Source of the DNA: a virus
Length of the DNA: 36,748 nucleotides
IMG/VR virus record: IMGVR_UViG_3300021185_002194
Location: 1-36,748 of that record
Direction: 5' to 3' (one strand)
The position numbers and the translations under genes are program-made. The stretch's first letter is position 1. Each line of letters starts with the position of its first letter. The notes under the pieces were generated by a model, which had not been told where the DNA came from, made no database searches, and saw only the letters and a list, made by a program, of their open reading frames with translations. Below are positions 15,951 to 36,748 of the stretch, one piece after another.

Positions 15951-17998
15951 GTTATAAGGCTACCACCAGGTCTAAATGATGATACTTCTTGTTTATACTG
16001 CATTTCCATTTCACGCATCTGCACAGCCAATGCTGTTTCTCTGTCAATTTTTTCACGTTGCAATGCATCGTTTGCAGCCATTTTTTCACGCTCAATTTGC
16101 ATTCTGCTATCTATTTCGTACTTTTTAAGTTCCATTTCTTGCTGTTTAGCTTGTGCTTCCATTTGCATTTTTATTTGTTCGCTGTTATCTTGCGGCTCTT
16201 GGCCTTGCTCACCCATGCCAGGCTGTGGTGCAGGGAAAAACATTTCAGGTGCTTTTATACCAGCTTTTGTAGCATATCGTATTAATGCAGCGTGTATTGA
16301 CTCAGGTGTTGCAAGCGAACCTTGCGGCGCACCGCCTTGCTGACTAACAATTGCAGCTTGCAGATTTATAACTTCTTTAGCTAATAATGCTTCTTGTTGC
16401 TTACCACCAGCACCAACGCCAATTTCTATAGTCATATCGTGTCGCCTACCCCATTTTGTAGGGTCTACTTGTGTCCACTTACCTCTAAGACGGACATAAT
16501 CAGCTTCCGTTGCATAATCTTTAATAAGACAATGTATACCTAACATCATATCTTTAATACCGCCTTCAGCAAAGATACGTGCCATTAGTCTTGTACGTTT
16601 TTTACCTTCAGAAAGCATTGTAAGCGCTCCTGAGGCCGTTTCGTGCAATGTGTCAGCCTTTATACCCGTTTCACCGCGCATGATGCCTGTACGGCGCTCT
16701 GCCATGACATTTGCTGTTTCTAGACCTGACATATAGTCAAAACCACTGCCAGCCAGTCTAACTGGTCTTACGGCACCGCCATTGCGTGACCTTATTGGTG
16801 CGCCAGGCGTATTGTTGAGCAAATCAGATATAGTGTTTTCATTCGCACCATCTTCTGACACTTCCATGCGTTGATTGAGGCTAAATGACAGTTCATCTAG
16901 CATATGTCGTTGTATGCCTGTTTTTACACGCTGCACTTCAATTAATTTATCGGCTAAAGACAATCCATAAAATTTATGGGGCATTGGGTATGGACATATA
17001 CTAGAGTATTGTATATAGTCCGCATCTTCTATTTCCAATATTACAGACGCATCGTCATTAGTTATAAGTCGTTTTATTTGGCCTTCAACACGTATATAAT
17101 GCTCTAAAACAGTAACTTGCTCCATTACACCTATAGAATTGTTAAATAAATCATCTTCAGTGTCTAAACTACGTGCATCAGTAACGGTTTCATTGTCACC
17201 AACATCTACATTAGTTAAATTTGCTACTTTGTCAGGGTCATAACCCTTTTCTAATAAATCCTGTTTACGTGTTTGTATTTGCGCTACGCAATATGTTGCA
17301 TCTCGCAATTTTACAGTATCTTTTGCTACTGCAAATCGTTCAGCAGGTACTGTTTCTATTTTTACGCGGCCTTTTGTAGTAGTTTTAGTAAACTCAGCGC
17401 CTGTTATAGTTATTTGACCATCTTCACGTTCTTCTGTTTCACCAGCAGTTAATTCATAACCGTTTTCCAGCATTGACATATAGCCAAAGCCATCAATCTG
17501 TTCGTATGTTTGTTTATCGTCGTAGCTATCTTCTTCCCAATACCAACGAAATATACCTGTTTTAAGCAATAATGCTTCTTTTATGCCGTCATATAGCACC
17601 TGGAACCCATTGTTTTGTTCAAAAAACACATGATTAATATAATCTGTTTCTTGTTGGGCAGCTTCTTCATCTTCTATACCTACAGGTTGAAATACAGCTA
17701 CATCTTCACCTGACAATATTTCTACAAGGTCAGGCAGTATAGATTCAACATTATCAGCAATATCTGTACTTACAGTTTTACTGCGCTGTCCAAATACAGA
17801 TACATCAAACACATCGCCATTGTAGTAACGTAATGCTATTTCACGACTGTTTGTTAGGTCACTATCATGTGACATACCAATAGATTGTTCAAACTCAGCA
17901 CGTACCATAGATAACACATCATCATCACCCGTATCATCTACGCCGTCAGCAGTGTTGTTTTCATCATCGTCAAATATGTCTGCGTTGTATTCTTGCAT
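15947..17998 (-). CDS. Portal protein
   Basis: This 683-residue protein lies between terminase and scaffold. Its size fits podovirus portals (P22 725, N4-like about 760). The acidic N terminus is followed by a portal-type core: DIADNVESILPDLVEILSG, then GIKEALLLKTGIFRWYWEED, and later RTGIMRGETGIKADTLHETA and a MTIEIGVGAGGKQQEALLAK segment near the barrel. The last 70 residues are a Gln/Glu/Lys/Met-rich helix, as in P22-type portals with a long barrel. It forms the dodecameric DNA gate at the head vertex and the docking site for TerL. Start and stop overlap both neighbours (1 and 4 bp). Confidence 0.92.
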   Translation of the reverse strand: MQEYNADIFDDDENNTADGVDDTGDDDVLSMVRAEFEQSIGMSHDSDLTNSREIALRYYNGDVFDVSVFGQRSKTVSTDIADNVESILPDLVEILSGEDVAVFQPVGIEDEEAAQQETDYINHVFFEQNNGFQVLYDGIKEALLLKTGIFRWYWEEDSYDDKQTYEQIDGFGYMSMLENGYELTAGETEEREDGQITITGAEFTKTTTKGRVKIETVPAERFAVAKDTVKLRDATYCVAQIQTRKQDLLEKGYDPDKVANLTNVDVGDNETVTDARSLDTEDDLFNNSIGVMEQVTVLEHYIRVEGQIKRLITNDDASVILEIEDADYIQYSSICPYPMPHKFYGLSLADKLIEVQRVKTGIQRHMLDELSFSLNQRMEVSEDGANENTISDLLNNTPGAPIRSRNGGAVRPVRLAGSGFDYMSGLETANVMAERRTGIMRGETGIKADTLHETASGALTMLSEGKKRTRLMARIFAEGGIKDMMLGIHCLIKDYATEADYVRLRGKWTQVDPTKWGRRHDMTIEIGVGAGGKQQEALLAKEVINLQAAIVSQQGGAPQGSLATPESIHAALIRYATKAGIKAPEMFFPAPQPGMGEQGQEPQDNSEQIKMQMEAQAKQQEMELKKYEIDSRMQIEREKMAANDALQREKIDRETALAVQMREMEMQYKQEVSSFRPGGSLIT

Positions 17999-19314
17999 TA
18001 TATTGCACTTCCGTAATTAGGCATTATCAGTGGTTTTGCTTTACGTCTAACAAATCTATCTGACATTATTGCCATTAATCCAAAACTATCAGCGTCATGT
18101 GATGACCAATCGTGATTAGGGCCAAGTCCTATGTCACGTCCATCAGCAGGGCGCTTTTCGTGATACCAACCAAGTGATACTCGGCCAGCCTGTGTTTTTT
18201 CTCTAACAAACTTACATTTAGGTAATATGCGTCTTACAGCTTCAACACGTTGCATTGCTGCGCCTTTACCTTGGTTTGTCAATGGTTTTAGCACCTCAAA
18301 CCCGCCATCTCTCCAATGGTCTTCTATTCTTTTGCCTGTCCAACTATTTTCGTTAACACCATCATGCGGTAGCTGCATTATAGCGTGTGGCCATCGTCTA
18401 CGCATTTCATTAATGTGATAACTAAGCACTTGGCCTTGTGCTATGTAATGGTCTAATATGTGTATCCAATCACCTACAAATTGTGCTAACCAAATAGTAT
18501 AACTATCAGCTTTAGCACCAGAACCACCAATATCGTGAAAGCCGTACACAGGCAGTGCAGGGTCAATAGGTAGACTATCAACAATCCGTTTATCACGTTC
18601 AGCTTGCGCTAATAGTTTAGAGAAATATGCGCCTTCATGCACACTGGCATAATCGCCTTCCCATATCCACTCATAGCTATCGGGTCGTTTTTCTTGGTCT
18701 TCTATGCGTTGATTAGCCAATCGCGTTTTGTTAAACCAAGGGTTGTCCTTCCAATTCATTTGTACTATTTTACTGCTGTTAGGCGGTTCAAGCCTAAAGC
18801 GTTGGTCTGTAGCACTACCTTTGCGTTCTGGGTTCCATGTTACCCATATTTCAGAGCCTTCTTCACGAATTGTAGGGAGTAGTTTACTCCAGGCTAGTTC
18901 GCTTACAGGTTCTGCTTCGTCAATCCAGCACAGCATAATACGCGCTTTTGACTTAATACTTTCAAGGTTATGTCTTAGTCCGCTAAAACTATAATCAACA
19001 CGCCCTGGCATTTTAGGGTTAGTTCTTATATACTTTTCGCCTACCTCATAGCATTGTGACAACCATTTATTGCCAATAATAGCTGCTTTTACCTCGGCAA
19101 AACTACTATCATTCAAACTGTTTAACTGCTCACGAGCGCAAAGTATTTGTCCACTTTCGCCATTACTTGCAAGCATTGCACCTCTTACAGCCGTCATCAT
19201 GGCAAAGCTACGTGTCTTAGCACTGCCTCTGCCGCCATATGCGCCTCTAAAATCAGCTTTACCTTCAAATACAGGTATAAGCTTAGGCGGTAATTCTATG
19301 TTAATCGCTGTCAC
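17998..19314 (-). CDS. terL: Terminase large subunit
   Basis: This 438-residue protein is the packaging motor. The ATPase domain has Walker A GGRGSAKT at residues 27-34, Walker B IMLCWIDEAE at 126-135 with catalytic E133, and a TWNP coupling motif at 159-162. The RNase-H-like nuclease domain has the acidic residues D261 (GFHDIGG), D318 (PHDG) and D408 (HDADSFG). The length is normal. It lies directly after the small subunit, which it overlaps by 14 bp, and its stop meets the portal start. The packaging mode (cos, pac or direct repeat) cannot be read from the protein by eye. Confidence 0.96.
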   Translation of the reverse strand: MTAINIELPPKLIPVFEGKADFRGAYGGRGSAKTRSFAMMTAVRGAMLASNGESGQILCAREQLNSLNDSSFAEVKAAIIGNKWLSQCYEVGEKYIRTNPKMPGRVDYSFSGLRHNLESIKSKARIMLCWIDEAEPVSELAWSKLLPTIREEGSEIWVTWNPERKGSATDQRFRLEPPNSSKIVQMNWKDNPWFNKTRLANQRIEDQEKRPDSYEWIWEGDYASVHEGAYFSKLLAQAERDKRIVDSLPIDPALPVYGFHDIGGSGAKADSYTIWLAQFVGDWIHILDHYIAQGQVLSYHINEMRRRWPHAIMQLPHDGVNENSWTGKRIEDHWRDGGFEVLKPLTNQGKGAAMQRVEAVRRILPKCKFVREKTQAGRVSLGWYHEKRPADGRDIGLGPNHDWSSHDADSFGLMAIMSDRFVRRKAKPLIMPNYGSAI

Positions 19315-19588
19315 TTTTTGGTGCTGTCAATTCTATTTTATTTATTATTTTAAATGGCTCACCGCTGTCGTCGTTAGCCACTTGCATTGGCAATACTTTG
19401 CCTAACAACGTCATGAATGCAGCAGGGTTTTCTTCTGCACGTTCACGTAAATACCTAACTAAACCATCTTTACCACCACCTGTTTTAATAGCAGCTTGCA
19501 GTATTGCATCCTTTAATAATGCAGTTTGTTTATTTGGTGTACCTTTTTGTCTGCCACCTGTTTTTTTACGTTTAGGTTTAATATCCAT
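19301..19588 (-). CDS. terS: Terminase small subunit candidate
   Basis: This 95-residue protein has the N-terminal GGRQKGTPNKQTALLKDAIL motif followed by RAEENPAAFMTLLGKVLPMQ. The pattern is typical of small proteins directly upstream of terL in alphaproteobacterial and marine phages. The basic N terminus would bind DNA and the helical part would oligomerise. The role is inferred from position plus motif. It overlaps terL by 14 bp. Confidence 0.78.
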   Translation of the reverse strand: MDIKPKRKKTGGRQKGTPNKQTALLKDAILQAAIKTGGGKDGLVRYLRERAEENPAAFMTLLGKVLPMQVANDDSGEPFKIINKIELTAPKSDSD

Positions 19589-20141
19589 TACGTTGCCTCA
19601 ATTCTGCATCAGATATCTGTCCAAGTCCTCTTAACTGATTGTTTAATGTTTGTTGCTGCATCATGCGATTGTAGTTGTTAAATGCGTTGTTATTACCAGC
19701 AAACGGCATATAATCTTGCATAATAGGTTGTTTATCAGGCATTGTAGGTATACTGTATTGTGGCATCTTAGGGGCTACAGGCATTACATCGTTAGTTAGC
19801 GCTTGCGGCTCTTGATACTCACGTATAGGCTGCATTTGATTAGGTATTTGTTGTTGCGTTACAGGCATTTGCTGCATGGGTTGCGGTATCTGTGGCATTT
19901 GTGCAACACTTGGTGCTGTTTTAATATATTCTGGTACAGAATTTTGCATCATAGGTTGTTTTGGCGTTTGTTGCATAGGGCGCTGTTCTATGGGTTGTTG
20001 TTGACGCATCATACCACCATTACCACCAGGTCGCTTTACAGCACGTTGCAAGGGTGCAAAACCCATATTATTCTGCCTACCACCATTGGTTAAGTTGCCA
20101 TTGGGTCTGTTAAATCTATCTAAGCCAGGTCTACCAAACAT
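19578..20141 (-). CDS. Gln/Met/Pro-rich low-complexity late protein
   Basis: This 187-residue protein is dominated by Gln, Met, Pro and Asn (MRQQQPIEQRPMQQTPKQPM and similar strings). Two short ordered segments remain: FGRPGLDRFNRP at the start and LNNQLRGLGQISDAELRQRN at the end. The disorder hides any family. It overlaps the TerS start by 11 bp and is the second gene of the late operon. The strict frame and tight spacing argue that it is expressed. It may be a virion-associated disordered protein or an assembly chaperone. Confidence 0.65.
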   Translation of the reverse strand: MFGRPGLDRFNRPNGNLTNGGRQNNMGFAPLQRAVKRPGGNGGMMRQQQPIEQRPMQQTPKQPMMQNSVPEYIKTAPSVAQMPQIPQPMQQMPVTQQQIPNQMQPIREYQEPQALTNDVMPVAPKMPQYSIPTMPDKQPIMQDYMPFAGNNNAFNNYNRMMQQQTLNNQLRGLGQISDAELRQRNGY

Positions 20142-20147
20142 AATATA

Positions 20148-20258
20148 CTAATACCCAGGTATCTTATAACCGCTTGATTTACGCTTACCAGAACGCTTTC
20201 TACACTTACCCATCTTCTGACAGGTCTTAGGACTGGTACATGACTTACAAGGTTTCAT
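20148..20258 (-). CDS. 36-residue Cys/Lys-rich mini-protein, first gene of the late operon
   Basis: Read by hand on the minus strand: 36 codons from ATG at 20256-20258 to TAG at 20148-20150. The product begins MKPCKSCTSPKTCQKMGKCR and ends SSGYKIPGY. Four Cys (residues 4, 7, 13, 19) in a CxxC-x5-C-x5-C pattern, with Lys/Arg all around, suggest a metal-binding, nucleic-acid-binding knuckle. Its stop lies 6 bp before the start of the next late gene. A GGA at about -12 is a weak ribosome site. Comparable tiny Cys-rich proteins occur next to terminase genes in other marine phages, as far as I recall. The function is unknown. Confidence 0.65.
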   Translation of the reverse strand: MKPCKSCTSPKTCQKMGKCRKRSGKRKSSGYKIPGY

Positions 20259-20480
20259 AAAAAATTTTTCCAAAAAAAAATGACGCAATACCCCCATAAG
20301 CCTTAACAAAAGGCGAGGTGCGAGGCTTCAATATTGTTTGAACGCGCGGCATCATCTGTTGTATAATTACCACAGGGCAAAAAAAATTCAAGAAAAAAAA
20401 TGGGGATATAAAAATAGGTGGTGATGTATATATAAAGTTAAACATATAAATATATATAAGATGGTGGGGTGGGGTCGGGC
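20259..20480 (-). promoter_or_regulatory. Leader and promoter region of the late operon
   Basis: This gene-free stretch lies between the terminator at 20481-20506 and the first late gene, so the late promoter should be here. One candidate on the minus strand is TTGAAT (20391-20386) followed by TAATTA 16 bases on, or by TTATAC 19 bases on. Downstream the leader has a 5-bp GCCTT/AAGGC hairpin (20300-20314), a duplicated GCGAGG and long A/T runs. The promoter-associated motif of the small-gene units is not clearly present, so late timing may use another signal. A 66-codon open frame here is AT-run sequence and is not believed. Confidence 0.4.
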
Positions 20481-20506
20481 AATAAAAAAGGGAGGCAATG
20501 CCCCCC
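20481..20506 (-). terminator. Rho-independent terminator before the late operon
   Basis: On the minus strand GGGGGGC and GCCTCCC pair (7 bp with one G-U pair, 3-base loop) and are followed at once by TTTTTTATT. It ends the unit of the gene at 20556-20852 and insulates the late operon from the upstream small-gene units. The plus strand lacks a U-tract, so it acts on leftward transcription only. Confidence 0.88.
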
Positions 20507-20555
20507 TGGTTAAATTTGTTTTGGTTTAGGTCGTTTATGTTTTGAGTTTTGTAGT

Positions 20556-20852
20556 TTATGCTTCTTCAAATTCCATATTTACAACATCAATATCTTTTTT
20601 TTCGCTAGGTAGTAACACGTCGCCCCAGTCTAACAATTTGTTAATAGCGTCTTCAGTTGTGCCTACCTTATACCCATGCCCATAAGCTATATCATAAATG
20701 TTGCTGTCCCTGTTATGCCTTAGCTTTAGCACATAATCAAAGAATTTACTATATTCTTTGCGATTGTCAAAAATGAATGTTTCATTCGCTTTATTATTGT
20801 TTTCAATATAATATATTTTTACGAAATAATTATAGTTACTATGTCCATACAT
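20556..20852 (-). CDS. Small protein, unknown (98 aa, shorter start chosen)
   Basis: The protein from MYGHSNYNYFVKIYYIENNN has 98 residues, is rich in Tyr/Asn/Asp and ends acidic (KKDIDVVNMEFEEA). I do not recognise it. An ATG 11 codons upstream (20883-20885) would extend it, but that ATG sits inside the repeated leader element GGCAATGAAGCC. The layout of the other units (promoter, leader element, ribosome site, ATG) places the true start at 20852. It is the only gene between its promoter and the terminator at 20481-20506. Confidence 0.65.
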   Translation of the reverse strand: MYGHSNYNYFVKIYYIENNNKANETFIFDNRKEYSKFFDYVLKLRHNRDSNIYDIAYGHGYKVGTTEDAINKLLDWGDVLLPSEKKDIDVVNMEFEEA

Positions 20853-20877
20853 TGTCTTTTCTTTCTTTTTAAAGAGC

Positions 20878-20933
20878 GGCTTCATTGCCTTAATTAAGTT
20901 ATGCCTGGTAAGCCGCTTATGGTCAACATTAAT
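20878..20933 (-). promoter_or_regulatory. Promoter of the 20852 gene with upstream motif and GGC..GCC leader element
   Basis: On the minus strand the conserved motif ATTAATGTTGACCATAAGC occupies 20933-20915. Its TTGACC (20926-20921) is a -35 box, CATAAC (20903-20898) is the -10 box, and the spacer is 17 bases. The leader element GGCAATGAAGCC lies at 20889-20878. The same order is found at 22632-22692, 23666-23724 and 24979-25035. A near-palindrome AACATTA..TAATGTT flanks the motif. Confidence 0.65.
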
Positions 20934-20964
20934 ATTGCTAATGTTAGCCGCGCCAGTAGCAAAA

Positions 20965-21125
20965 GAACAAAAGGTGAACGCTCATATGAGCGATTTAAGC
21001 CGCGTGGGTAAGGTTTCAGGGTTTTGCTTACCCTACTATATAAAAAGCTCAAAACGCTTTCAGTGGCGAAGACATAAGGCGAACAAAGGGTGAACGGATA
21101 GCGAACGTTTGTTCATGGTTTGTTC
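20965..21125. repeat. GAAC iteron-like repeats phased at 11 bp; candidate origin or operator array
   Basis: GAAC occurs at 20965, 20976, 21081, 21092 and 21103, and inverted GTTC at 21111 and 21122. Steps within each cluster are exactly 11 bp. Two 16-bp copies (GAACAAARGGTGAACG) at 20965-20980 and 21081-21096 differ by one base and lie 116 bp apart. Between them are a perfect 14-bp palindrome CGCTCATATGAGCG (20979-20992), a 7-bp hairpin GGGTAAG/CTTACCC (21006-21033) and an AT-rich stretch. No convincing gene covers this stretch. One helical turn between repeats puts the bound proteins on one face of the DNA, as in replication origins or cooperative operators. Confidence 0.6.
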
Positions 21126-21136
21126 TTTTACAGTAC

Positions 21137-21164
21137 AAATAAAAGCCAAGCCTTGAAGCCTGGC
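21137..21164 (-). terminator. Rho-independent terminator
   Basis: On the minus strand GCCAGGCT and GGCTTGGC form a stem of 7-8 bp with two G-U pairs and a 4-base loop, followed by TTTTATTT. It ends the two-gene unit 21637-21180 and separates it from the iteron region and the next promoter. Confidence 0.82.
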
Positions 21165-21179
21165 AATTATTCCCTCCCT

Positions 21180-21290
21180 TTAAGCTGTCAGCACTATAAA
21201 CCAAAGCGTTGTTATACATACAAAGCCTATAATTAATAATAAATTTAGCATATCGATAAGAAAAGCTTTTGATTGCAAATAATTTAGCAT
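21180..21290 (-). CDS. 36-residue single-span membrane mini-protein
   Basis: Read by hand: ATG at 21288-21290 overlaps the stop of the upstream gene (ATGCTAA) and TAA is at 21180-21182. The product is MLNYLQSKAFLIDMLNLLLI continuing into IGFVCITTLWFIVLTA. Residues 14-36 are one unbroken hydrophobic helix after a short polar N terminus. It ends 16 bp before a terminator. The coupled start, terminal position and clear membrane helix support a real gene. Possible roles are a small inner-membrane effector (superinfection exclusion, host inhibition) or an antiholin; none is proven. Confidence 0.55.
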   Translation of the reverse strand: MLNYLQSKAFLIDMLNLLLIIGFVCITTLWFIVLTA

Positions 21291-21637
21291 TGCGTGACCC
21301 CGTCGTTAAAACCTATGCACCATTGAATGAATTCTTTTTGTGTTTCTTTTGTTGCTATGTGAATGCTTCTATTAATCTCAATTCTTGGCCCGTAGTACCT
21401 AGGATTGGATGCAACAACCGTTTTAATATCTTGCGGCTTGTATTGGTTAAAACCATTCTTTTTAATGTACCTAACAACATTAGAGACTTGCCAGGCGTCA
21501 TAATACTTTTTTTCACCCCTAAAGATAAAGCCAGGCGCATATGCTTTATTGTCCATGAATTCGCGTTCTGTTTGTTCCCCTATAGAGACGTGCTTGTCTA
21601 TAAGCTTTTCAAGTTTGTTTTTTTCTGTTGTTGTCAT
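21284..21637 (-). CDS. Small protein, unknown (117 aa)
   Basis: The product begins MTTTEKNKLEKLIDKHVSIG and has a VVRYIKKNGFNQYKPQDIKT segment and a C-terminal FIQWCIGFNDGVTQC. I do not recognise it. A start 21 codons upstream is possible, but AAAGGATTAAGAAT directly before the ATG at 21635-21637 is the ribosome-site pattern shared by most genes of this block, so the shorter start is chosen. It is followed by the overlapping membrane mini-protein. Confidence 0.7.
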   Translation of the reverse strand: MTTTEKNKLEKLIDKHVSIGEQTEREFMDNKAYAPGFIFRGEKKYYDAWQVSNVVRYIKKNGFNQYKPQDIKTVVASNPRYYGPRIEINRSIHIATKETQKEFIQWCIGFNDGVTQC

Positions 21638-21667
21638 ATTCTTAATCCTTTTGTTTGTGATAACCAT

Positions 21668-21704
21668 AATAAACCATAGTAACAGCTTATTGTATAGCAT
21701 TAAT
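21668..21704 (-). promoter_or_regulatory. Promoter with the conserved upstream motif, no leader element
   Basis: On the minus strand ATTAATGCTATACAATAAGC lies at 21704-21685. TATACA (21696-21691) and TTTATT (21673-21668) are 17 bases apart and serve as -35 and -10. Unlike the related sites, no GGC..GCC element follows before the ribosome site of the 21637 gene. Confidence 0.6.
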
Positions 21705-21809
21705 AACCCTAATACTGTCTATTTTAGATAATAACCCCCATGTACCCGCAAGTTAATATCAATTTAACAAATTAAATGAGCTGTTAATTATATATATATA
21801 ATCTATTAG

Positions 21810-22013
21810 TTATCTATTAAAACACTCATTCGCTCTTACAACCTTACTTGCCCATTCATTAAATATTTGTTGTGCTTGTACTTTGGTTAGTTTATAATTT
21901 TGTTGTAAATGACGGGTGTAACTTATAGGTGCGCTAGTCATACTATGAAATTTTCTTTTTAAAAGGTCATCTAGTATTTCATAAGCCCATTCGTGTTTAT
22001 CGTTATAAGTCAT
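21810..22013 (-). CDS. Small helical protein, unknown (67 aa)
   Basis: This 67-residue protein begins MTYNDKHEWAYEILDDLLKR. Its C-terminal half (LQQNYKLTKVQAQQIFNEWASKVV) has a helix-turn-helix-like spacing, but I cannot assign a family. The start has the block's typical AAAGGATTATAAAATG ribosome site. It is the last of three genes in the unit headed by the promoter at 22632-22692, and no clear terminator follows. Confidence 0.65.
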   Translation of the reverse strand: MTYNDKHEWAYEILDDLLKRKFHSMTSAPISYTRHLQQNYKLTKVQAQQIFNEWASKVVRANECFNR

Positions 22014-22037
22014 TTTATAATCCTTTGTCTTTAAAAG

Positions 22038-22280
22038 TTATATAGTAAATTGTGCGTGTAGTTTTGAATTTATAACGCTACTATTCCAACTCATAGTTTG
22101 TTCAAAATATTTTAATTTCCAAATATTTATATCTGTATTTTTTGCTAAGTTTGCTCTTTTTATTTTGGCGCGTGCCTCTTTAACTGTTGCAAATTCGCCT
22201 ATAATATAACTTGGTTTTTTATATGTATAAACTTCAACTTCATATGAATATTTGCTTTTCGTTTTGTTATTATAAGTCAT
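22038..22280 (-). CDS. Small protein, unknown (80 aa)
   Basis: This 80-residue protein is Lys/Tyr-rich with a beta-strand-like middle (YSYEVEVYTYKKPSYIIGEF) and a VKEARAKIKRANLAKNT helix. It has no family I recognise. Its first residues MTYNNK echo the next gene's MTYNDK, which may reflect the shared leader rather than homology. AAAGGATTTAAAAATG is the ribosome site. Confidence 0.65.
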   Translation of the reverse strand: MTYNNKTKSKYSYEVEVYTYKKPSYIIGEFATVKEARAKIKRANLAKNTDINIWKLKYFEQTMSWNSSVINSKLHAQFTI

Positions 22281-22291
22281 TTTTAAATCCT

Positions 22292-22612
22292 TTAGTTATT
22301 GTATGAGTTCATTAAATATTTAATCATTTCATTTTCATTTTTAGTTAAGTCATCATCAGTGCTATCTATTAATGAATTGACTATATCACCTCCTAATTCG
22401 TCATCAGTGAAATCCGCATATATTAAGTATTCAAGAACCTCCGTAACTGAAAAGTGAAAATGGTTTGTTACTAAGCGAACGGCATCATCAACACCTATGT
22501 AATGGTGAGCCTCTAGAGCGCCCTCGATAAGCCCTTTGTGGTGTATTTTATTTTCATTATAATTGTAATCATGTATTATTTTTTCGTACGATTTTCTCAT
22601 TAATTCAGTCAT
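22292..22612 (-). CDS. Small acidic protein, unknown (106 aa)
   Basis: This 106-residue protein is mostly helical. It has a His-rich patch in NHFHFSVTEVLEYLIYADFT and an acidic tail (DDELGGDIVNSLIDSTDDDL). The low pI and small size suit a DNA mimic or an inhibitor of a host protein, but this is speculation. It is the first gene after the promoter at 22632-22692, with AAGGGACAAAAAATG as ribosome site. Confidence 0.65.
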   Translation of the reverse strand: MTELMRKSYEKIIHDYNYNENKIHHKGLIEGALEAHHYIGVDDAVRLVTNHFHFSVTEVLEYLIYADFTDDELGGDIVNSLIDSTDDDLTKNENEMIKYLMNSYNN

Positions 22613-22631
22613 TTTTTGTCCCTTTCTTAAT

Positions 22632-22692
22632 GGCTTAATTGCCTTGGACTATTTTTTTATAGTATATGTTTAGCTTATAGTAAACAATTAGA
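22632..22692 (-). promoter_or_regulatory. Promoter with conserved motif and GGC..GCC leader element
   Basis: On the minus strand TCTAATTGTTTACTATAAGC lies at 22692-22673. TTTACT (22684-22679) and TATAAA (22661-22656) are separated by 17 bases, and GGCAATTAAGCC lies at 22643-22632. The -10 box matches the sigma-70 consensus at five of six positions, so this is the best promoter of the set. Confidence 0.75.
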
Positions 22693-22711
22693 GTTACTTA
22701 TGTTGCAATTA

Positions 22712-22837
22712 TTACTTTTTAAATCCTTTTTTCATGTTTGCATAAGCTTTGGGTGATATAGTTGACTTCTTTTTGCTTCGGCTTATGCCTTTTTTCTTGC
22801 GTGCGTTTATGTTCGCATATAGTCCCTTTCCTGGCAT
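22712..22837 (-). CDS. 41-residue basic phage mini-protein (MPGKGLYANI family)
   Basis: Read by hand: ATG at 22835-22837, TAA at 22712-22714. The product begins MPGKGLYANINARKKKGISR and ends SPKAYANMKKGFKK. The MPGKGLYANI opening is shared by small basic proteins in many phages and cyanophages, so this is a real conserved gene despite its size. The function is unknown; high Lys content suggests nucleic-acid or ribosome binding. A GAAAGG ribosome site lies 7 bases upstream and a promoter candidate lies at 22872-22900. Confidence 0.82.
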   Translation of the reverse strand: MPGKGLYANINARKKKGISRSKKKSTISPKAYANMKKGFKK

Positions 22838-22871
22838 ATCTTAACCTTTCTCAATCAATTATCTATATGAA

Positions 22872-22900
22872 ATCATAAGCTTTTTTGTAATAAAATGCAA
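22872..22900 (-). promoter_or_regulatory. Sigma-70-like promoter for the 41-residue gene
   Basis: On the minus strand TTGCAT (22900-22895) and TATGAT (22877-22872) are separated by 17 bases, with the start codon 34 bases further on. This site lacks the conserved motif and leader element seen in the other units, so the gene may be expressed independently of that regulon. Confidence 0.6.
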
Positions 22901-22914
22901 GTAATTAGTTATTA

Positions 22915-23643
22915 TTAAGCCGCCCATTTCGCGCCGTTCCCATGCAAAACAACTGCAACAGATTTAGCCTTAATACTTGACCCCCTGCAAAGCTTACACG
23001 TTGCACAAGTAATGGCCTTTTCTTTTAGCTTTATATCAGTGGCGGGACACAAAATTTCATTAGGTTGCAAGCTGTCATTTTCTTTTATGGTTCTAAAAGT
23101 TCGAATGTTAAGCTTCCAAAATTTACGCGCGTCTTTTAACGAATTAGCACTTGCCATACAATTAGAATAATCAACGCCTTTCAAATCATGCTGATGCGTA
23201 TAACCCGTATAAGATTTGGCCCTGCTGATTAATGCCTTAATTATATGACCTGGTACAGCGGCGGGGTCACCATATGCACCCAATCTTATAGCTTCATTAG
23301 CGCCAAGCGATTCCAAGTCATTAACAAGTTTATATTTGTTGGCCTTGTAAGCTTTATAAATTGAATTTGGCCCATGGATAAGAGACACATAGCAAACGCG
23401 TTCTTTTGCAGTTCCTTTATCACCATTGTGAGCTATTCCTTTTAAGGGGCAATTGCCACAGATTGAAACGTCTAAACCTAGTCTGTTATTTTCAATTGGG
23501 CCTTTTCCATTATCATTGATAATATACAGGCTTGCCATTTTACCAAGCTTTTTATTTCTTTTGCTAAACGTTAAAGCAGCTATAATGGGCTGCCCGTCAA
23601 TTTCACTAGGGCCGCGATAAATTAAACATGATTGCTTTTGCAT
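22915..23643 (-). CDS. Conserved Cys-rich phage protein of unknown function (242 aa)
   Basis: This protein belongs to a family I have met in many phages without an assigned role. The landmarks are a SICGNCPLKG motif (about residues 60-70), a VCYVSLIHGPNSIYKAYKAN segment, the signature RLGAYGDPAAVP (about 121-132), TGYTHQHD, MASANS, RTFRTIKEN and a C-terminal CPATD..TCATCKLCRG cluster. At least seven Cys in paired motifs suggest a zinc or iron-sulfur site. The strict conservation pattern suggests an enzyme. It heads a unit with its own promoter and leader element, and a good AAAAAGGATTATTACAATG ribosome site. Confidence 0.75.
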   Translation of the reverse strand: MQKQSCLIYRGPSEIDGQPIIAALTFSKRNKKLGKMASLYIINDNGKGPIENNRLGLDVSICGNCPLKGIAHNGDKGTAKERVCYVSLIHGPNSIYKAYKANKYKLVNDLESLGANEAIRLGAYGDPAAVPGHIIKALISRAKSYTGYTHQHDLKGVDYSNCMASANSLKDARKFWKLNIRTFRTIKENDSLQPNEILCPATDIKLKEKAITCATCKLCRGSSIKAKSVAVVLHGNGAKWAA

Positions 23644-23665: not shown

Positions 23666-23724
23666 GGCTTATGCCTTGATTGATTTTTTTATTACATAAA
23701 TATTGCTTATTGTACAGTATTAAA
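23666..23724 (-). promoter_or_regulatory. Promoter with conserved motif and short leader element
   Basis: On the minus strand TTTAATACTGTACAATAAGC lies at 23724-23705. TGTACA (23716-23711) serves as -35 and AATAAA or TAATAA (about 23694-23688) as -10. The leader element here is the 10-base form GGCATAAGCC (23675-23666). The promoter overlaps the 3' end of the zinc-ribbon gene upstream. Confidence 0.62.
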
Positions 23725-24211: not shown

Positions 24212-24544
24212 TTAATAAAAAGTTGGGGCGCGTCGGATGGGTTTATCCTCGCACGATTCGATTTCATATTGTCTCAAAATTTGTGCCACTTTAAAAGAAG
24301 ACCTAGCACTTTCATACATATCATCATGAATAATATGCATACTAAGTACTTCAGTTTCAGTTTCCCGCAACAAGTCTTGTGTACTCTGTGCTACATTCTC
24401 AGCGAATGCATGAATTTTATCCATAATTTGATAGTATTCATACATCGTGTTACTAGCATCATCCATTATATGTTCCTCGATATGCGAGGCTATAATCTCA
24501 GCTAAGTCCTCTACAGCATTATATTTAGTGTTTATTACATTCAT
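24212..24544 (-). CDS. Small acidic helical protein, unknown (110 aa)
   Basis: This 110-residue protein is nearly all helix and acidic in its first two thirds (VEDLAEIIASHIEEHIMDDA, then LLRETETEVLSMHIIHDDMY), ending with a basic-aromatic tail RRAPTFY. I recognise no family. Acidic helical proteins of this size in phage early regions often target host proteins, but this is inference. The ribosome site is AAAGGATAATAAAATG. Confidence 0.65.
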   Translation of the reverse strand: MNVINTKYNAVEDLAEIIASHIEEHIMDDASNTMYEYYQIMDKIHAFAENVAQSTQDLLRETETEVLSMHIIHDDMYESARSSFKVAQILRQYEIESCEDKPIRRAPTFY

Positions 24545-24555
24545 TTTATTATCCT

Positions 24556-24960
24556 TTATATGCCAAAAAATTCTTTAACTTCTTTCCACGAACCTGTTAG
24601 TATTGGTTGCTCAAAATTATTTTCTCGACCCCATATTTCATTTTTATGTGTATTATTTGCTAAAGCGATAGTATAAAAAATTTCGCCAGTTTTTATATCT
24701 GCAAAACGAAAATCATCATAACTGCCTTGACAGTCGCCATTATTCTTAAACCAAACGTACATTTTATGTCCGTCAATTTTTGCACTGGGAAGTAATTGTA
24801 TAACTTTTTTACCAAGTAATTTTGTTTTCTTTGCAAGACTGCTGTTATTACAAAACCAATCGTACCAACCCGCACTGCATTGCGTGCTTACATCGTTGCA
24901 ATTGTAATCACCATTGATAAAGTTACCAACCCATTTATTTACTGTTATTTTATTTGTCAT
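24556..24960 (-). CDS. Conserved phage protein, unknown (134 aa)
   Basis: The product begins MTNKITVNKWVGNFINGDYN. Recognisable segments are GWYDWFCNNSSLAKKTKLLG, a MYVWFKNNGDCQGSYDDFRF stretch and a IWGRENNFEQPILTGSWKEV end. This series occurs in hypothetical proteins of other phages; no function is known to me. A start five codons upstream is possible, but AAAGGAAATAAAATG before the ATG at 24958-24960 fits the block's pattern. It is the first gene after the promoter at 24979-25035. Confidence 0.75.
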   Translation of the reverse strand: MTNKITVNKWVGNFINGDYNCNDVSTQCSAGWYDWFCNNSSLAKKTKLLGKKVIQLLPSAKIDGHKMYVWFKNNGDCQGSYDDFRFADIKTGEIFYTIALANNTHKNEIWGRENNFEQPILTGSWKEVKEFFGI

Positions 24961-24978
24961 TTTATTTCCTTTCAAGGT

Positions 24979-25035
24979 GGCTTAATTGCCTATCTGTATG
25001 ACTAATATAGAAACTACTTATAGTATAGCATTAGA
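24979..25035 (-). promoter_or_regulatory. Promoter with conserved motif and GGC..GCC leader element
   Basis: On the minus strand TCTAATGCTATACTATAAG lies at 25035-25017. TATACT (25027-25022) serves as -35. The best -10 at 17 bases is TAGTCA (25004-24999), which is weak. GGCAATTAAGCC lies at 24990-24979. It sits in the 85-bp gap after the NusG-like gene and would drive 24960 down to 23707. Confidence 0.6.
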
Positions 25036-25045
25036 AAAACTTATA

Positions 25046-25600
25046 CTATGTAACAGACTTTATATTCTCTATTGCCGTTTCAACTTTTCGAGGCGTACCT
25101 AAAATATTTAACATAAGTATTAAATTATTATCTACCTGGCTTTGAACACTTAACTGCAAGCCAGCCATGCTACCCGTTTTAAACTGCACTAACTCACCTG
25201 GACTATATTGCTTAAACACATCAGGTTTATATTTTTTTTGTCTATTTTTCTTTGAATGCTTACTAGTTTTGTAGCCTGTCGGATATATCTCTTTTAAATC
25301 ATCAATAGCATTTAAACTTAGACAATATGGTGCATCGTTATGCATTATAAATCCATATATGTTAGCATTTTTGGCTATCAATTCAGCTAATTTATTTGTA
25401 TTGCCTTCAACCTTTATTATTAAATATCCTTTGAATAATGGCTCGACATAACTAATCCTCACACGCTTTTTTCTTTGTTGCTTGCTAGTCCTTAAATATT
25501 TAGTCTCAAACGGCGTATATACTTCGATATTATTCTGACTTAAATAATCATGCACATTTAAAACTGCATCACTTTTAACTTTTAATATCTGCCACAACAT
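25046..25600 (-). CDS. NusG/RfaH-like transcription elongation or antitermination factor
   Basis: This 184-residue protein has the two parts of NusG paralogs. Residues 1-100 look like an NGN domain: WQILKVKSDAVLNVHDYL, an EVYTPFETKYLR strand, EPLFKGYLIIKVE, and a GFIMHNDAPYCLSLNAI end. Residues about 130-184 look like a KOW domain (FKQYSPGELVQFKTGSMAGL onwards). The length equals typical NusG. Phage NusG paralogs can load on RNA polymerase and let it pass terminators, which would suit a late operon of over 20 kb. It is the third gene of the regulatory operon, starting 2 bp after the GcrA-like gene. Confidence 0.85.
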   Translation of the reverse strand: MLWQILKVKSDAVLNVHDYLSQNNIEVYTPFETKYLRTSKQQRKKRVRISYVEPLFKGYLIIKVEGNTNKLAELIAKNANIYGFIMHNDAPYCLSLNAIDDLKEIYPTGYKTSKHSKKNRQKKYKPDVFKQYSPGELVQFKTGSMAGLQLSVQSQVDNNLILMLNILGTPRKVETAIENIKSVT

Positions 25601-25602
25601 TA

Positions 25603-26187
25603 TTAATATTCTCTGATTGGTATTAACTTAAAACTACTATTATCCATGACAATTTTAGCTTGGTCTAAGTTACCACGCCATGCCAGTTTTGCTTGCAGTG
25701 TTAGTGTTTTGGTTGAGCAATGCAAATAACCACCTGCTGACCTTAAAAAATAACCCTTGCCAGGTTTTGGCACAAAGCTTGCGGATATAATATTTTCGCT
25801 CTTGTTGCTTCTCTTGGGAAATTGATTAGGTGCATATTTACGCATTTTATTAAAAGTGGTGTAACTTATATCAGCCATTTCTAATATTTCACTTACGCCA
25901 TAGCCTTCCATCCACAACTTCCTACATTTATGTATTTCAGCTATATCTGCATATTTTTTATATTGCTTAAATTTTGGTGCTACAAGCTTTAACTCTTTTT
26001 TCTTTTTGGTAAAACCACGCTTGGGCAATATATCGCGATTGCGGTGTGCAAACTTATCTAAGCTTGATTTACTTACACCTAGCTCTTTTGCTATCTGCTC
26101 AGGAGACATATACATATCGCCCCACAACTTAGTGGCTAATAGTATTTTATCCTGTGTCCAAATCCAGCTAGTCATTTGGGTTATCAA
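25603..26187 (-). CDS. GcrA-like DNA-binding regulator with two HTH segments
   Basis: This is a 194-residue protein. Residues 7-55 (SWIWTQDKILLATKLWGDMY, SPEQIAKELGVSKSSLDKFA, HRN) follow the GcrA pattern: an opening Trp, the LW helix, then the HTH with AxELG. A second HTH-like segment lies at about 86-115 (CRKLWMEGYGVSEILEMADI). GcrA of alphaproteobacteria binds methylated GANTC promoters together with sigma-70, and phage homologs may redirect the host polymerase. The resemblance was judged by eye, so a generic phage HTH protein is the alternative. It overlaps the Cro-like gene by 20 bp and is followed at 2 bp by the NusG-like gene. AAGG lies 8 bases before the chosen start. Confidence 0.65.
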   Translation of the reverse strand: MITQMTSWIWTQDKILLATKLWGDMYMSPEQIAKELGVSKSSLDKFAHRNRDILPKRGFTKKKKELKLVAPKFKQYKKYADIAEIHKCRKLWMEGYGVSEILEMADISYTTFNKMRKYAPNQFPKRSNKSENIISASFVPKPGKGYFLRSAGGYLHCSTKTLTLQAKLAWRGNLDQAKIVMDNSSFKLIPIREY

Positions 26188-26359
26188 GCTTGCCTTCTTC
26201 CATCCATGTCAACACGTTTTTATAAACCTGGGGAATTGGGTCTATTTTGCCTTGACTATGCCTTATAATAGTTGACCTGTTGCACCCACAAAAAGTTGCA
26301 AAACTTGCATAGTTAAAACCTAATTTCTTTAATAATCTGCTATATTCGTCGTTTGTCAT
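26168..26359 (-). CDS. Cro/CI-like HTH repressor
   Basis: This 63-residue protein consists of a single HTH: LLKKLGFNYASFATFCGCNR followed by STIIRHSQGK, with a short C-terminal helix (YKNVLTWMEEGK). The size and lack of an oligomerisation domain are typical of Cro-type regulators. It is transcribed away from the early plus-strand operon, directly next to the divergent control region, where it would bind. A strong AAAGGAGTAACT ribosome site precedes the ATG. With no integrase seen, it is more likely a switch between early and later transcription than a lysogeny repressor. Confidence 0.75.
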   Translation of the reverse strand: MTNDEYSRLLKKLGFNYASFATFCGCNRSTIIRHSQGKIDPIPQVYKNVLTWMEEGKLDNPND

Positions 26360-26550
26360 AGTTACTCCTTTTGTTTTGCCTAGATTTACATAAGATTTAC
26401 CCTAATGCAACACTTTTCTAACATTAATTTTACTAATACTATACTATAAATATTGCTAATGCGGAATTTATTTCCTTGACTTATGTTTCTGCATGATATA
26501 GAGTGTAATCACTACACAAGGCAATAAAGCCAAATATAGGAGGTAGTAAT
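26360..26550. promoter_or_regulatory. Divergent control region between regulatory and early operons
   Basis: These 191 gene-free bp separate the leftward regulator operon from the rightward early operon. On the minus strand TTGCAT followed 16 bases on by TAAATC is a modest promoter for the Cro-like gene. On the plus strand a copy of the conserved motif (CTAATACTATACTATAAAT, 26432-26451) lacks a good -10 box at 17 bases, so it may be a binding site only. The early promoter itself is listed separately. Confidence 0.55.
26476..26531 (+). promoter_or_regulatory. Early rightward promoter with GGC..GCC leader element
   Basis: TTGACT (26476-26481) is a good -35 box. The likely -10 is TGATATAGA, an extended -10 with TATAGA at 26497-26502 (15-base spacer), or TAGAGT at 17 bases. 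GGCAATAAAGCC lies at 26520-26531, just inside the transcript, followed by an AGGAGG ribosome site. The leader element is the same as in the minus-strand units. Confidence 0.68.
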
Positions 26551-26868
26551 ATGACAAATAAAATAATATATGAGACTAGCAAAGAGGGTAATGGTGTTTT
26601 TAACGTTAAGATATTTGACGATGGAACAGTTGACACGACTGACGATGACAATATGAATTTAAATGTATTCGACAATGTTAATGATGCTATCAACTGGCAT
26701 TACAAACAATCTCGCCTCATAAAAAACAGAGAGGCAAATTCACACGAAAATATAGTTTATCATTTAATGCCTTTCCATAATTATGACATGCCAATAATTG
26801 TGGATAGCCAATGGAATATTATAAGTGCAGTTTGGGATAATACTGAACCAAAAGGGGTAACAAGATGA
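26551..26868 (+). CDS. First early protein, unknown (105 aa)
   Basis: This 105-residue protein starts MTNKIIYETSKEGNGVFNVK and is rich in Asn/Asp. It has a NVFDNVNDAINWHYKQSRLI segment and a PIIVDSQWNIISAVWDN end. I do not recognise it. It has the best ribosome site of the block (AGGAGG, 8 bases before ATG) and is the first gene of the early operon, so it should be the earliest and strongest product. A host-takeover role is plausible. Confidence 0.7.
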   Translation: MTNKIIYETSKEGNGVFNVKIFDDGTVDTTDDDNMNLNVFDNVNDAINWHYKQSRLIKNREANSHENIVYHLMPFHNYDMPIIVDSQWNIISAVWDNTEPKGVTR

Positions 26869-27071
26869 AAATATATAGAGTATTTGATTATGAAGAAGAA
26901 ACTGGATGTGGGTCAACCTATACTTCAAGCATGAAACACGCCAAAAAAATAGCAAAACTTATGGATGACCCCAGTGAAATTTGCTTTACAGAATTTAACA
27001 ATGACAAAGCGTCAATCATACGCGCACTTAATATTGCGTCTATGGAACATTATAGTAGAGATATAAAATGA
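26865..27071 (+). CDS. Early small protein, first member of a tandem paralog pair (68 aa)
   Basis: This 68-residue protein begins MKIYRVFDYEEETGCG. The pattern M-K-x-A-x-x-I-x-K-x-M-x-DP and the EFNNDKASIIRALNIAS segment are shared with the next gene. No outside family is recognised. It overlaps the first early gene by 4 bp (ATGA), so translation is coupled. Confidence 0.68.
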   Translation: MKIYRVFDYEEETGCGSTYTSSMKHAKKIAKLMDDPSEICFTEFNNDKASIIRALNIASMEHYSRDIK

Positions 27072-27084
27072 AAAAGGAAATAAA

Positions 27085-27333
27085 ATGAAAATTTACAGAG
27101 TATTAGACTTCGATACTGAGGATACTCACCATGGTATCCACGTAGCAACTATGAAGGAGGCTGAAACAATATCAAAGTATATGACTGACCCTAAGATTGA
27201 TTGCCTAGAATTTAATAACGATAAGCAATCAATTATAAATGAGCTCAATGTTGCCGCAGGTCATCGCTTAGAATTTAACATGGCCACAGACCGCATAGAA
27301 CCTATTATTAAAACTGGAGAGAACTATGCCTAA
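27085..27333 (+). CDS. Early small protein, second member of the tandem pair (82 aa)
   Basis: This 82-residue protein begins MKIYRVLDFDTEDTHHGIHV and carries EFNNDKQSIINELNVA, so it is a clear paralog of the preceding gene with a 14-residue C-terminal extension. The shared layout suggests a fold of one helix between strands. AAAAAGGAAATAAAATG is its ribosome site. Confidence 0.68.
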   Translation: MKIYRVLDFDTEDTHHGIHVATMKEAETISKYMTDPKIDCLEFNNDKQSIINELNVAAGHRLEFNMATDRIEPIIKTGENYA

Positions 27334-27544
27334 ACATACAATAGAATCAATTATAGAAAACTGCGGTGGCTCAAAGGCCATCGCTAACAACATCGAAAAC
27401 CTTAAATACGATAGCGTTAGGAAATGGAAAATATTTGGAATCCCAGAACGACATTGGAGTACAATCATAAGGTTACACAAAAAACGGCTGTCACCCAACA
27501 GACTACACAAACTAAACAAGATTTGCAGAGGTGACTTCAGATGA
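27326..27544 (+). CDS. Cro/YdaS-like HTH protein
   Basis: This 72-residue protein has the pattern GGSKAIANNIENLKYDSVRK, then WKIFGIPERHWSTIIRL. GGxxAIA, then VxxW, then GIPxxHW is the signature of Cro/YdaS-type antirepressor or replication-control proteins. It is the second HTH protein next to the divergent control region (the other is 26168-26359 on the minus strand), the layout of a two-repressor switch. It overlaps the previous gene by 8 bp and the next by 4 bp. Confidence 0.72.
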   Translation: MPKHTIESIIENCGGSKAIANNIENLKYDSVRKWKIFGIPERHWSTIIRLHKKRLSPNRLHKLNKICRGDFR

Positions 27545-35407: not shown

Positions 35408-35696
35408 TCTTAATAATGAGTGCAGTGAGGTCTTTATGGTTTTGCCGCATTTCAACGCCCAGGCTTTCAATACTGCGCTCCACTCTTTTAACAGATTCAC
35501 GTACATCATCTTTCCTTGCAAAGTTTTCATTCATGTCATCTTTTAAATCATCTATACGACTATGTGTTTTAGAGTTGTCATTACTTATCTTAGCTGAGAC
35601 CTGTCTATCTCTGGCAATAACACCGCCAACAAACGTAACTAATAATGCACAAAAAGTTAATAATGTCTTAACATCTACGTTTGCTGTATTTTCCAT
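35397..35696 (-). CDS. Membrane-anchored coiled-coil lysis protein (spanin- or holin-like)
   Basis: This is a 99-residue protein. Residues 9-29 form one membrane helix (VKTLLTFCALLVTFVGGVIA), and residues 32-95 a charged coiled-coil (THSRIDDLKDDMNENFARKD, then SVKRVERSIESLGVEMRQN). This is the layout of i-spanins or small phage holin partners. It sits between the tail fibre and the endolysin, overlaps the endolysin by 11 bp and starts 4 bp after the fibre stop. The exact lysis role is open. Confidence 0.65.
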   Translation of the reverse strand: MENTANVDVKTLLTFCALLVTFVGGVIARDRQVSAKISNDNSKTHSRIDDLKDDMNENFARKDDVRESVKRVERSIESLGVEMRQNHKDLTALIIKNEN

Positions 35697-35700
35697 GATG

Positions 35701-36748
35701 TTAACTTTCCAACGCCTCTAGTCGTGTTTCTAATGCTTCAATCTTAGCAATCGCGTCCTGTAGTGCAGATGTTAGCAATGGCACAATCTTACTTTGGTCG
35801 ATGCCTTGGTAGTCTGGCACTTGCCTTGTTGCCATAACCTTTTCTGTTGTTTCTCGCCATAGTTGACCTTCCTCAAGTTCATCTGGCTCTACAACATCTG
35901 AGCTATATATTACTTCATCAATCGCAGGAGTTAGCTCTCGCTCTTGCGCCTCATAGGTAGCGTCAACGGCAGGTGTAACAAGTTGCTCTTGTTCTTCTGT
36001 TACTGCTTCAATAGCAGGGGTAAGTTCATTGCCATCTTCGTCATATGTAGCTTCTACGGCAGGACTTATCTCTACTGTTACTGTTTCATAAACGGCCTCA
36101 ACAGCAGGTGTTAGCTCAACTTGTATTGTTTCATACGTTGCGTCAACGGCAGGAGTGTATATGTCACCTGTTGCCTCGCTCTCAACATACTCTTGGTCAC
36201 GCATTGCATCCTTTTCTCCACTAATAGCTTCTGGTACTACCTCTTGTGCTTCATGTGCTAAGAAACCATCTACCCTAGTACCGTCTTCTTTCCACTCAAA
36301 GTTAACAGGCTTCAATGCTTTTACTCTGTCAATACTTCCTTGCATAGGTTGTATATCAGTCTTGAGCCTATAATCTGAGCTAGTTACATAACTTACTGAA
36401 AATGCACTAACATCTATTCTACCTATCTCACCATAAGGATTTTCAAATCCTATATGGGTCTGAGTAGTGTTAACATTGCCTACAGTTTGTAAAGCACGTG
36501 AAGACCCTACAACAGTAGATTCTATAAAGCCACTACCTGCTGCACTAGCACCACCAACGTTTAATGCATTACCTACGTCTAGATTAGCAGGAATATTTAT
36601 ACCTGTACCGCTTGTAATTAGATTAGTCGTTGCGCCATTCGCAGTTAATACTTTAACTTCACCTGTATTCGTTTGTAATCTTAAATCACCACTACCACCT
36701 GTGTATACAGACCTAGACGAGCTACCAAGATATATATTGCCTTCGACG
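35701..36748 (-). CDS. Tail fibre, partial: diverged allele of 91-4008 (3' part only)
   Basis: The minus-strand frame is open to the right edge, so the 5' end is outside the window. It encodes about 348 residues. The first part (VEGNIYLGSSSRSVYTGGSG onward) equals residues of the other copy. The next 70 or so residues before the chaperone differ strongly (HIGFENPYGEIGRI against HISFENANGQVGKI). The S74 site SSDYRLKTDIQP is identical, and the C-terminal 45-bp repeats number six instead of four. Bases 36642-36748 equal 945-1051 and 35611-35709 equal 1-99. Either this is the genome junction read through a second strain allele, or a real second copy. Confidence 0.88.
   Translation of the reverse strand, partial: VEGNIYLGSSSRSVYTGGSGDLRLQTNTGEVKVLTANGATTNLITSGTGINIPANLDVGNALNVGGASAAGSGFIESTVVGSSRALQTVGNVNTTQTHIGFENPYGEIGRIDVSAFSVSYVTSSDYRLKTDIQPMQGSIDRVKALKPVNFEWKEDGTRVDGFLAHEAQEVVPEAISGEKDAMRDQEYVESEATGDIYTPAVDATYETIQVELTPAVEAVYETVTVEISPAVEATYDEDGNELTPAIEAVTEEQEQLVTPAVDATYEAQERELTPAIDEVIYSSDVVEPDELEEGQLWRETTEKVMATRQVPDYQGIDQSKIVPLLTSALQDAIAKIEALETRLEALES
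35911..36156 (-). repeat. 45-bp in-frame repeats in the S74 chaperone, six units
   Basis: The units begin TPAVDA, TPAVEA, SPAVEA, TPAIEA, TPAVDA and TPAIDE, each 15 residues. The other allele (301-456) has four. The extra length is exactly 90 bp, two units. The shared first and last units mark the array's ends. Confidence 0.85.

Follow-up and report, generated by a model that had tools for sequence, protein, structure and literature searches.

A phage operon encoding NusG-like and GcrA-like proteins as a candidate early-to-late switch module

Introduction

The Q gene of phage lambda comes last among the early genes and immediately precedes the late promoter. According to the sources cited here, each for the point it describes, the place where Q loads is a promoter-proximal pause (PMC7171158), specialised paralogs of NusG are known from chromosomes and plasmids (PMC7819879), and one of them, LoaP, acts through an RNA hairpin in the leader (PMC12691694). 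Phages carrying GcrA homologs are also known, phiCbK among them, and the phiCbK homologs are described as members of the Pfam GcrA family (PMC3556154). In the literature searched, which left most subscription journals outside its coverage, no report of a phage-encoded NusG was found. A phage family labelled 'transcription antiterminator' (phrog_6386) already matches the NusG-like protein described below (E 2.2e-8), so that a phage protein of NusG-like kind is not in itself novel.

RfaH of E. coli has an autoinhibited alpha-helical C-terminal domain and joins paused complexes at ops, a site on the non-template strand. The protein analysed here resembles RfaH in its NGN fold, in being a specialised NusG paralog and in the candidate promoter-proximal leader found ahead of a long operon. 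It differs from RfaH in scoring under the cut-off of TIGR01955, in the lack of an ops sequence and in being phage-borne and coupled to a DNA-binding gene. With UpxY and LoaP it shares the best NCBIfam scores, a gene placed beside or near the operon served and a leader-based arrangement (through a candidate leader), but the scores stay under the cut-offs and the leader RNA has no significant fold. In one clade (clade C) the NusG-like gene has a position like that of lambda Q, last of the early genes and directly ahead of the late promoter; unlike Q, it belongs to an unrelated protein family, two proteins are encoded and there is no known Q binding element. The neighbouring GcrA-like protein has an N-terminal DNA-binding domain, like GcrA of Caulobacter and the phiCbK homologs, but unlike the latter it scores under the Pfam cut-off and fails to align over its C-terminal two thirds.

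Organization of the regulator operon

The window is the whole IMG/VR virus record IMGVR_UViG_3300021185_002194 (positions 1-36,748), from a marine phage. Three regulator genes, identified as ORFs in it, are transcribed leftward between 26359 and 25046:

25046..25600, minus strand: NusG-like protein, 184 aa, NGN domain and KOW-like C-terminus (PF02357, Foldseek, VIA-align)
25603..26175, minus strand: GcrA-like protein of 190 aa, start codon ATG at 26175 (PDB profile search, VIA-align)
26168..26359, minus strand: Cro-like small protein, plausibly helix-turn-helix, 63 aa (ORF; clade D homolog)

The Cro-like gene ends in ATGACTAG, where the GcrA-like ATG overlaps its stop by 8 nt, and only 2 nt separate the GcrA-like stop from the NusG-like ATG. 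Beside the operon lies a divergent early promoter region, with replication genes running rightward from 26551 (DnaB, a replication initiator and Erf, named by PHROGs). The tight operon next to an early promoter that an earlier note on this DNA had described was thus borne out. The late structural operon extends for ~20 kb on the minus strand, from about 20258 down to 91. No RNA polymerase was recognised among nine ORFs run against PHROGs (most large ORFs, part of the genome), and an Rfam scan and a tRNA scan of the window gave 0 matches each. With a NusG paralog and a protein bearing a GcrA-type DNA-binding domain, the operon encodes candidate regulators that could work on the host RNA polymerase, as that note had also proposed. 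Elsewhere in the window, a 12-nt tandem repeat at 7224-7338 encodes a Gly-Ser-Gly-Thr linker in an 872-aa gene, and the terminal part of a 1305-aa tail gene recurs at the opposite end of the record (1-1051 and 35611-36748, 87-94% identical), either as another allele of the tail C-terminus or through an effect of assembly.

The single-protein NusG scan returned seven near-identical contigs and the terminase scan 59, while profile scans identified 26 contigs with the NusG-like gene and 25 with the GcrA-like gene, all of the latter within those 26; the remaining one (L023) is truncated by the contig end in its GcrA-like gene. Grouped by regulator, these sequences formed clade A (the window plus 7 contigs), clade B (9) and clade C (10). 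The window and all 26 related contigs have the GcrA-like gene next to the NusG-like gene, at a spacing of -8 to +2 nt in 27/27 cases (truncated L023 included). The Cro-like gene was present in 8/8 members of clade A and in 0/19 of clades B and C. Terminases of clades A and B are 98-100% identical, their NusG-like proteins 45% and their GcrA-like proteins 57%. Since the terminases are nearly identical, the NusG/GcrA-like module either diverges faster than the rest of the genome or was exchanged.

A fourth group, clade D, was exposed by a search with the early leader described below and comprises six records with the GcrA-like gene and without NusG. In four of them (L237, L302, L226 and L267) the order of genes is Cro-like, a 70-71-aa protein, GcrA-like, a dGTP diphosphohydrolase-like gene (PF18909) and one small and one large terminase gene (named by sequence); the Cro-like gene was close upstream of the GcrA-like gene in 4/4 records inspected. 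The 70-71-aa protein is also encoded in clade C (L033 7950-8189). The GcrA-like gene is thus the sole component present in all four clades, and since clade D lacks NusG and clades B and C lack the Cro-like gene, the GcrA-like protein is the constant part and the other two are variable. The earlier note had envisaged a trio acting in three layers (repression, promoter activation and elongation) and a search for its co-occurrence in other phages. The packed operon and the recurrent GcrA-like/NusG-like adjacency stood, while the trio did not hold as a unit: the Cro-like gene is confined to clade A among the window and its 26 relatives, and even the GcrA-like/NusG-like pair is not obligatory, as clade D demonstrates. 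TerL relatives were mostly alphaproteobacterial phages, the best match being a Microcystis phage (54.7%); a search of genome contigs confirmed 0 of 127 pattern matches, and no host was assigned.

The NusG-like protein as a probable specialised paralog of NusG

The NGN domain (PF02357) was detected in the NusG-like protein at 42.4 bits (E 1e-10) against a cut-off of 22.2, which upholds the identity proposed from the sequence. Among NCBIfam models the scores followed the order UpxY (NF033644, 42.5 bits, cut-off 100), RfaH (TIGR01955, 31 bits, cut-off 144.5), housekeeping NusG (TIGR00922, 27.7 bits, cut-off 135.7) and LoaP (NF033641, 19.5 bits, cut-off 125), all under the curated cut-offs. The UpxY, LoaP and RfaH models matched 9/9 aligned members and the nusG model 8/9, the best E value being that of UpxY (7.9e-15). 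Fold comparisons agreed: the top Foldseek match of the predicted structure was RfaH bound to ops (5ond, E 2.3e-5), and VIA-align gave Z scores of 8-11 against NusG and RfaH structures (Z 11.2 and rmsd 2.3 over 100 residues for RfaH 8pen). The AlphaFold model itself is poor to modest (pLDDT 59.7), with a low-confidence helix at 155-168 and a C-terminal part under 50; the sequence profile reaches the C-terminus of A. aeolicus NusG (E 0.0043), and the RfaH model aligns to positions 3-180. Fold searches, of little reach outside residues 1-124, returned no other family there, and tblastn against 50,697 phage records found no relative. These results establish the NusG family and fold of the protein, with specialised paralogs of the RfaH/UpxY/LoaP type as the closest families, and it probably rides on the host RNA polymerase.

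A conserved leader follows the predicted late promoter

Upstream of the late structural operon, two elements were recognised:

20364..20391, minus strand: predicted late promoter, TTGAAT (20391-20386), 16-nt spacer and TGG-TAATTA (20369-20364) (by eye and alignment)
20320..20357, minus strand: late leader, AGAT-n3-GCCGCGCGT-n14-AGCCTCGC, candidate NusG-like loading site (alignment, pattern scan)

Clades A, B and C all have the late leader, conserved at an unchanged position behind the predicted late promoter. Two blocks (9 and 8 nt, in the same order) are common to the window and clade C leaders, and two such blocks were shared in 3/5000 dinucleotide shuffles; when the two leaders were simply aligned locally, the alignment was unremarkable and fell off the blocks (33/2000 shuffles reached its score). 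A loose version of the pattern was dropped after it returned at least 120 stretches, many in GC-rich viruses. The strict pattern, run on all IMG/VR contigs, returned 25 contigs, all in the TerL list of this phage group at >=85%, to which the late leader is restricted. These are 25 of the 35 loci with TerL>=85%, and the remaining 10 begin too close to or inside TerL to include the leader, except that L032 begins inside an insertion carried by L024 between leader and TerL. In some clade C phages the late leader is separated from the terminase genes by a methyltransferase gene (a 426-aa frame, named by eye; L024 1600-3560, also L023 and L032). Among loci with TerL<60% the leader was found in 0/24 and the NusG-like gene in 0/7 of the longer records; the NusG profile had no match in L042, L047, L050, L052 and L038 and matched the controls L019 and L033. 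Clade D records contain neither the NusG-like gene nor the late leader.

In 10/10 clade C loci the late leader begins 60 nt past the NusG-like stop, so that a candidate antiterminator gene stands between the early genes and the late promoter; this is not the case in clades A or B, where 3.8-4.7 kb separate the regulators from the late leader (long loci showing both). Since the relatives with a NusG gene share this leader at the start of the late operon, it is the likely target of the NusG-like protein. Leader and structural genes descend together, and the correlation therefore represents one lineage and not many independent events. The leader RNA folds no better than shuffles (z -0.77, -0.43, 0.68 and 0.72), and covariation analysis gave nine predicted pairs with three two-sided changes, all between the two sequence groups, which we do not count as proof. 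Likeness of the leaders to the RfaH ops site was set aside as too short for a test.

Judged from sequence and gene position, the NusG-like protein is most likely a late-operon antiterminator of the RfaH/LoaP type in a position like that of lambda Q. We propose, tentatively and with somewhat less than even confidence in the explanation as a whole, that the GcrA-like and NusG-like genes would constitute a translationally coupled early-to-late switch module. Shortly past the late promoter, the NusG-like protein would load onto the host RNA polymerase at the candidate leader (20357-20320), possibly at a pause, and would keep the polymerase processive, by read-through or antitermination, across the ~20-kb late operon. 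The GcrA-like protein would be a DNA-binding partner acting on promoter or operator DNA, and the Cro-like protein, where present, would repress early promoters.

The main rival, which we consider rather unlikely, is that the NusG-like protein is a general elongation factor needing no loading site: it would replace the host NusG on all polymerases and shield phage DNA from Rho and silencing, leaving the late leader with another role. On RNA polymerase, NusG and its paralogs are competitors for one site, and silencing of phages by host Rho is known, both as described in PMC7819879, and clades A and B have nearly the same late leader in spite of NusG-like proteins that are only 45% identical, so that allele-specific recognition of the leader is unsupported. 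Against a general role, the closest families (UpxY, RfaH and LoaP) are operon-specific paralogs, and the late leader tracks the presence of NusG.

The GcrA-like protein has a GcrA-type DNA-binding domain

The GcrA-like protein consists of a GcrA-type DNA-binding domain, a second HTH-like region and a small beta domain. Its best PDB profile match was the Caulobacter GcrA DNA-binding domain (E 0.0037), which also ranked first in VIA-align (Z 7.1, rmsd 1.1 A, 44 residues, 39% identity) and fits residues 8-54 of the model, although a Z of ~7 is tied with unrelated homeodomain-like chains. The Pfam GcrA family (PF07750) scored 12.3 bits, under its cut-off of 26.9, and was found at E<=1 in 5/9 members (best E 0.012); the NCBIfam GcrA model likewise remained under its cut-off. 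Full-length GcrA (7ye1) aligns at residues 2-37 only, the alignment with GcrA being limited to the first ~45 residues. No match to the sigma-70-interacting C-terminal domain of GcrA was obtained, though a missing match does not establish that such a domain is absent. The second HTH-like region and the beta domain had no clear match, and fold searches, of little reach outside residues 2-61, gave no other family there. Internal duplication of the HTH is weak, its score being reached by 40/2000 shuffles. In tblastn against the phage records we obtained one weak match (annotated 'GcrA-like cell cycle regulator', E 0.02), and none with the clade C protein; L113 gave a weak profile match (E 3.6e-5). 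GANTC, the site found at GcrA-regulated promoters, is rarer than expected in the window (35 vs 54.6) and absent from 17743-23308 and 24256-27343, so that the late promoter and three of the four promoter motifs listed below are free of it and the fourth has no copy within 400 nt. Identity as a full GcrA was rejected on these grounds (the Pfam score, the alignment at residues ~1-45 only and the absence of GANTC from the promoters): the protein has a GcrA-type DNA-binding domain but is not a GcrA. Of the two family assignments that were to be checked with HMMs, NusG therefore passed its cut-off and GcrA did not.

This GcrA-like HTH protein could by itself be the late activator, with the NusG-like protein as an accessory. 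We regard this as unlikely. The protein does stand out as the one component found in every clade, and its gene precedes the terminase genes both in clade C, where NusG accompanies it, and in clade D, where NusG is missing and the dGTP diphosphohydrolase-like gene comes before the small and large terminase genes; but no operator was identified and in clades A and B the gene is kilobases away from the late operon. Equally unlikely in our estimation, a two-protein replacement of lambda Q may be at work, in which the GcrA-type protein would mark the late promoter and hand the NusG paralog to RNA polymerase at the adjacent leader.

The Cro-like gene, promoter-like motifs and early leaders

The Cro-like protein had no Pfam match over the cut-off, and neither had its clade D homolog; its best PHROG (8898, E 0.0023) is one of unknown function. 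It is 52% identical over 58 aa to one clade D protein encoded at the same position. On the other strand, 27326-27544 encodes a small DNA-binding protein (phrog_8008, E 7.2e-6; weak YdaS) with look-alikes in clades B and C; this protein may prove to be the actual partner repressor.

Repeated promoter-like and leader elements do exist near the operon, as had been noted. The promoter motif TAATRCTATACWATAA occurs four times in the window (motif search):

26434..26449, plus strand: promoter-like motif TAATACTATACTATAA, ahead of the rightward operon
25018..25033, minus strand: promoter-like motif TAATGCTATACTATAA, directly past the NusG-like gene
23707..23722, minus strand: promoter-like motif TAATACTGTACAATAA
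21687..21702, minus strand: promoter-like motif TAATGCTATACAATAA

It was present in 8/8 members of clade A and in 0/19 of clades B and C, which have the same GcrA-like/NusG-like pair. The motif thus accompanies the Cro-like gene, whose product may use it as an operator, or it may simply be an extended -10 promoter.

The early leader AGGCAATNAAGCC was found in four exact copies in the window, against 0.025 expected:

26519..26531, plus strand: early leader AGGCAATAAAGCC, 19 nt before an ATG (exact match; widespread, not module-specific)
24979..24991, minus strand: early leader AGGCAATTAAGCC, 18 nt before an ATG (exact match)
22632..22644, minus strand: early leader AGGCAATTAAGCC, 19 nt before an ATG (exact match)
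20878..20890, minus strand: early leader AGGCAATGAAGCC, 25 nt before an ATG (exact match)

There are 24 copies in the 8 members of clade A, all ahead of start codons, 5 in 9 clade B loci and 0 in 9 clade C loci. The distance to the ATG is 17-20 nt (25 in one case; one sequence has a nearer ATG at 2 nt), and the AGGC...GCC(T) of the element could form a short stem with the loop AATNAA. Across all viral contigs, the early leader followed by an RBS and an ATG was found in at least 120 stretches vs 23 for a loop-permuted control, an enrichment of at least 5-fold, in viruses of 28-65% GC, many of them unrelated; a NusG-like gene lay within the examined stretch in 6/114 new loci among the matches listed. 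The genes behind the element are unrelated small genes that swap behind the same leader, as in an accessory early-gene site; one of them (L001:5331-6221, minus strand) encodes an ArdC-type anti-restriction protein (PF08401, 63.3 bits; PF18818, 138 bits). The early leader is a general viral 5' UTR element and not private to this NusG-like module.

The idea, following the earlier note, that the NusG-like protein acts at these early leaders as ops-like sites, for which their number and their placement before start codons in the window and clade A had spoken, is very improbable given their absence from clade C loci that have NusG, their spread through viruses mostly without it, their fixed distance to the ATG and their apparent placement, by eye, at the transcript start in clade B. 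The match of the operon to repeated promoter and leader elements that the note had drawn was not supported for either element, and we retain the late leader as the candidate site of NusG-like action.

Significance

If the two-protein replacement of Q were true, the handover from initiation to elongation would be contained in one translationally coupled pair. In the switch module proposed here, a phage NusG paralog with a conserved candidate loading site before the late operon would, if confirmed, represent a short, testable substitute for Q-type antitermination, for which clades A-D provide natural alleles for swapping.
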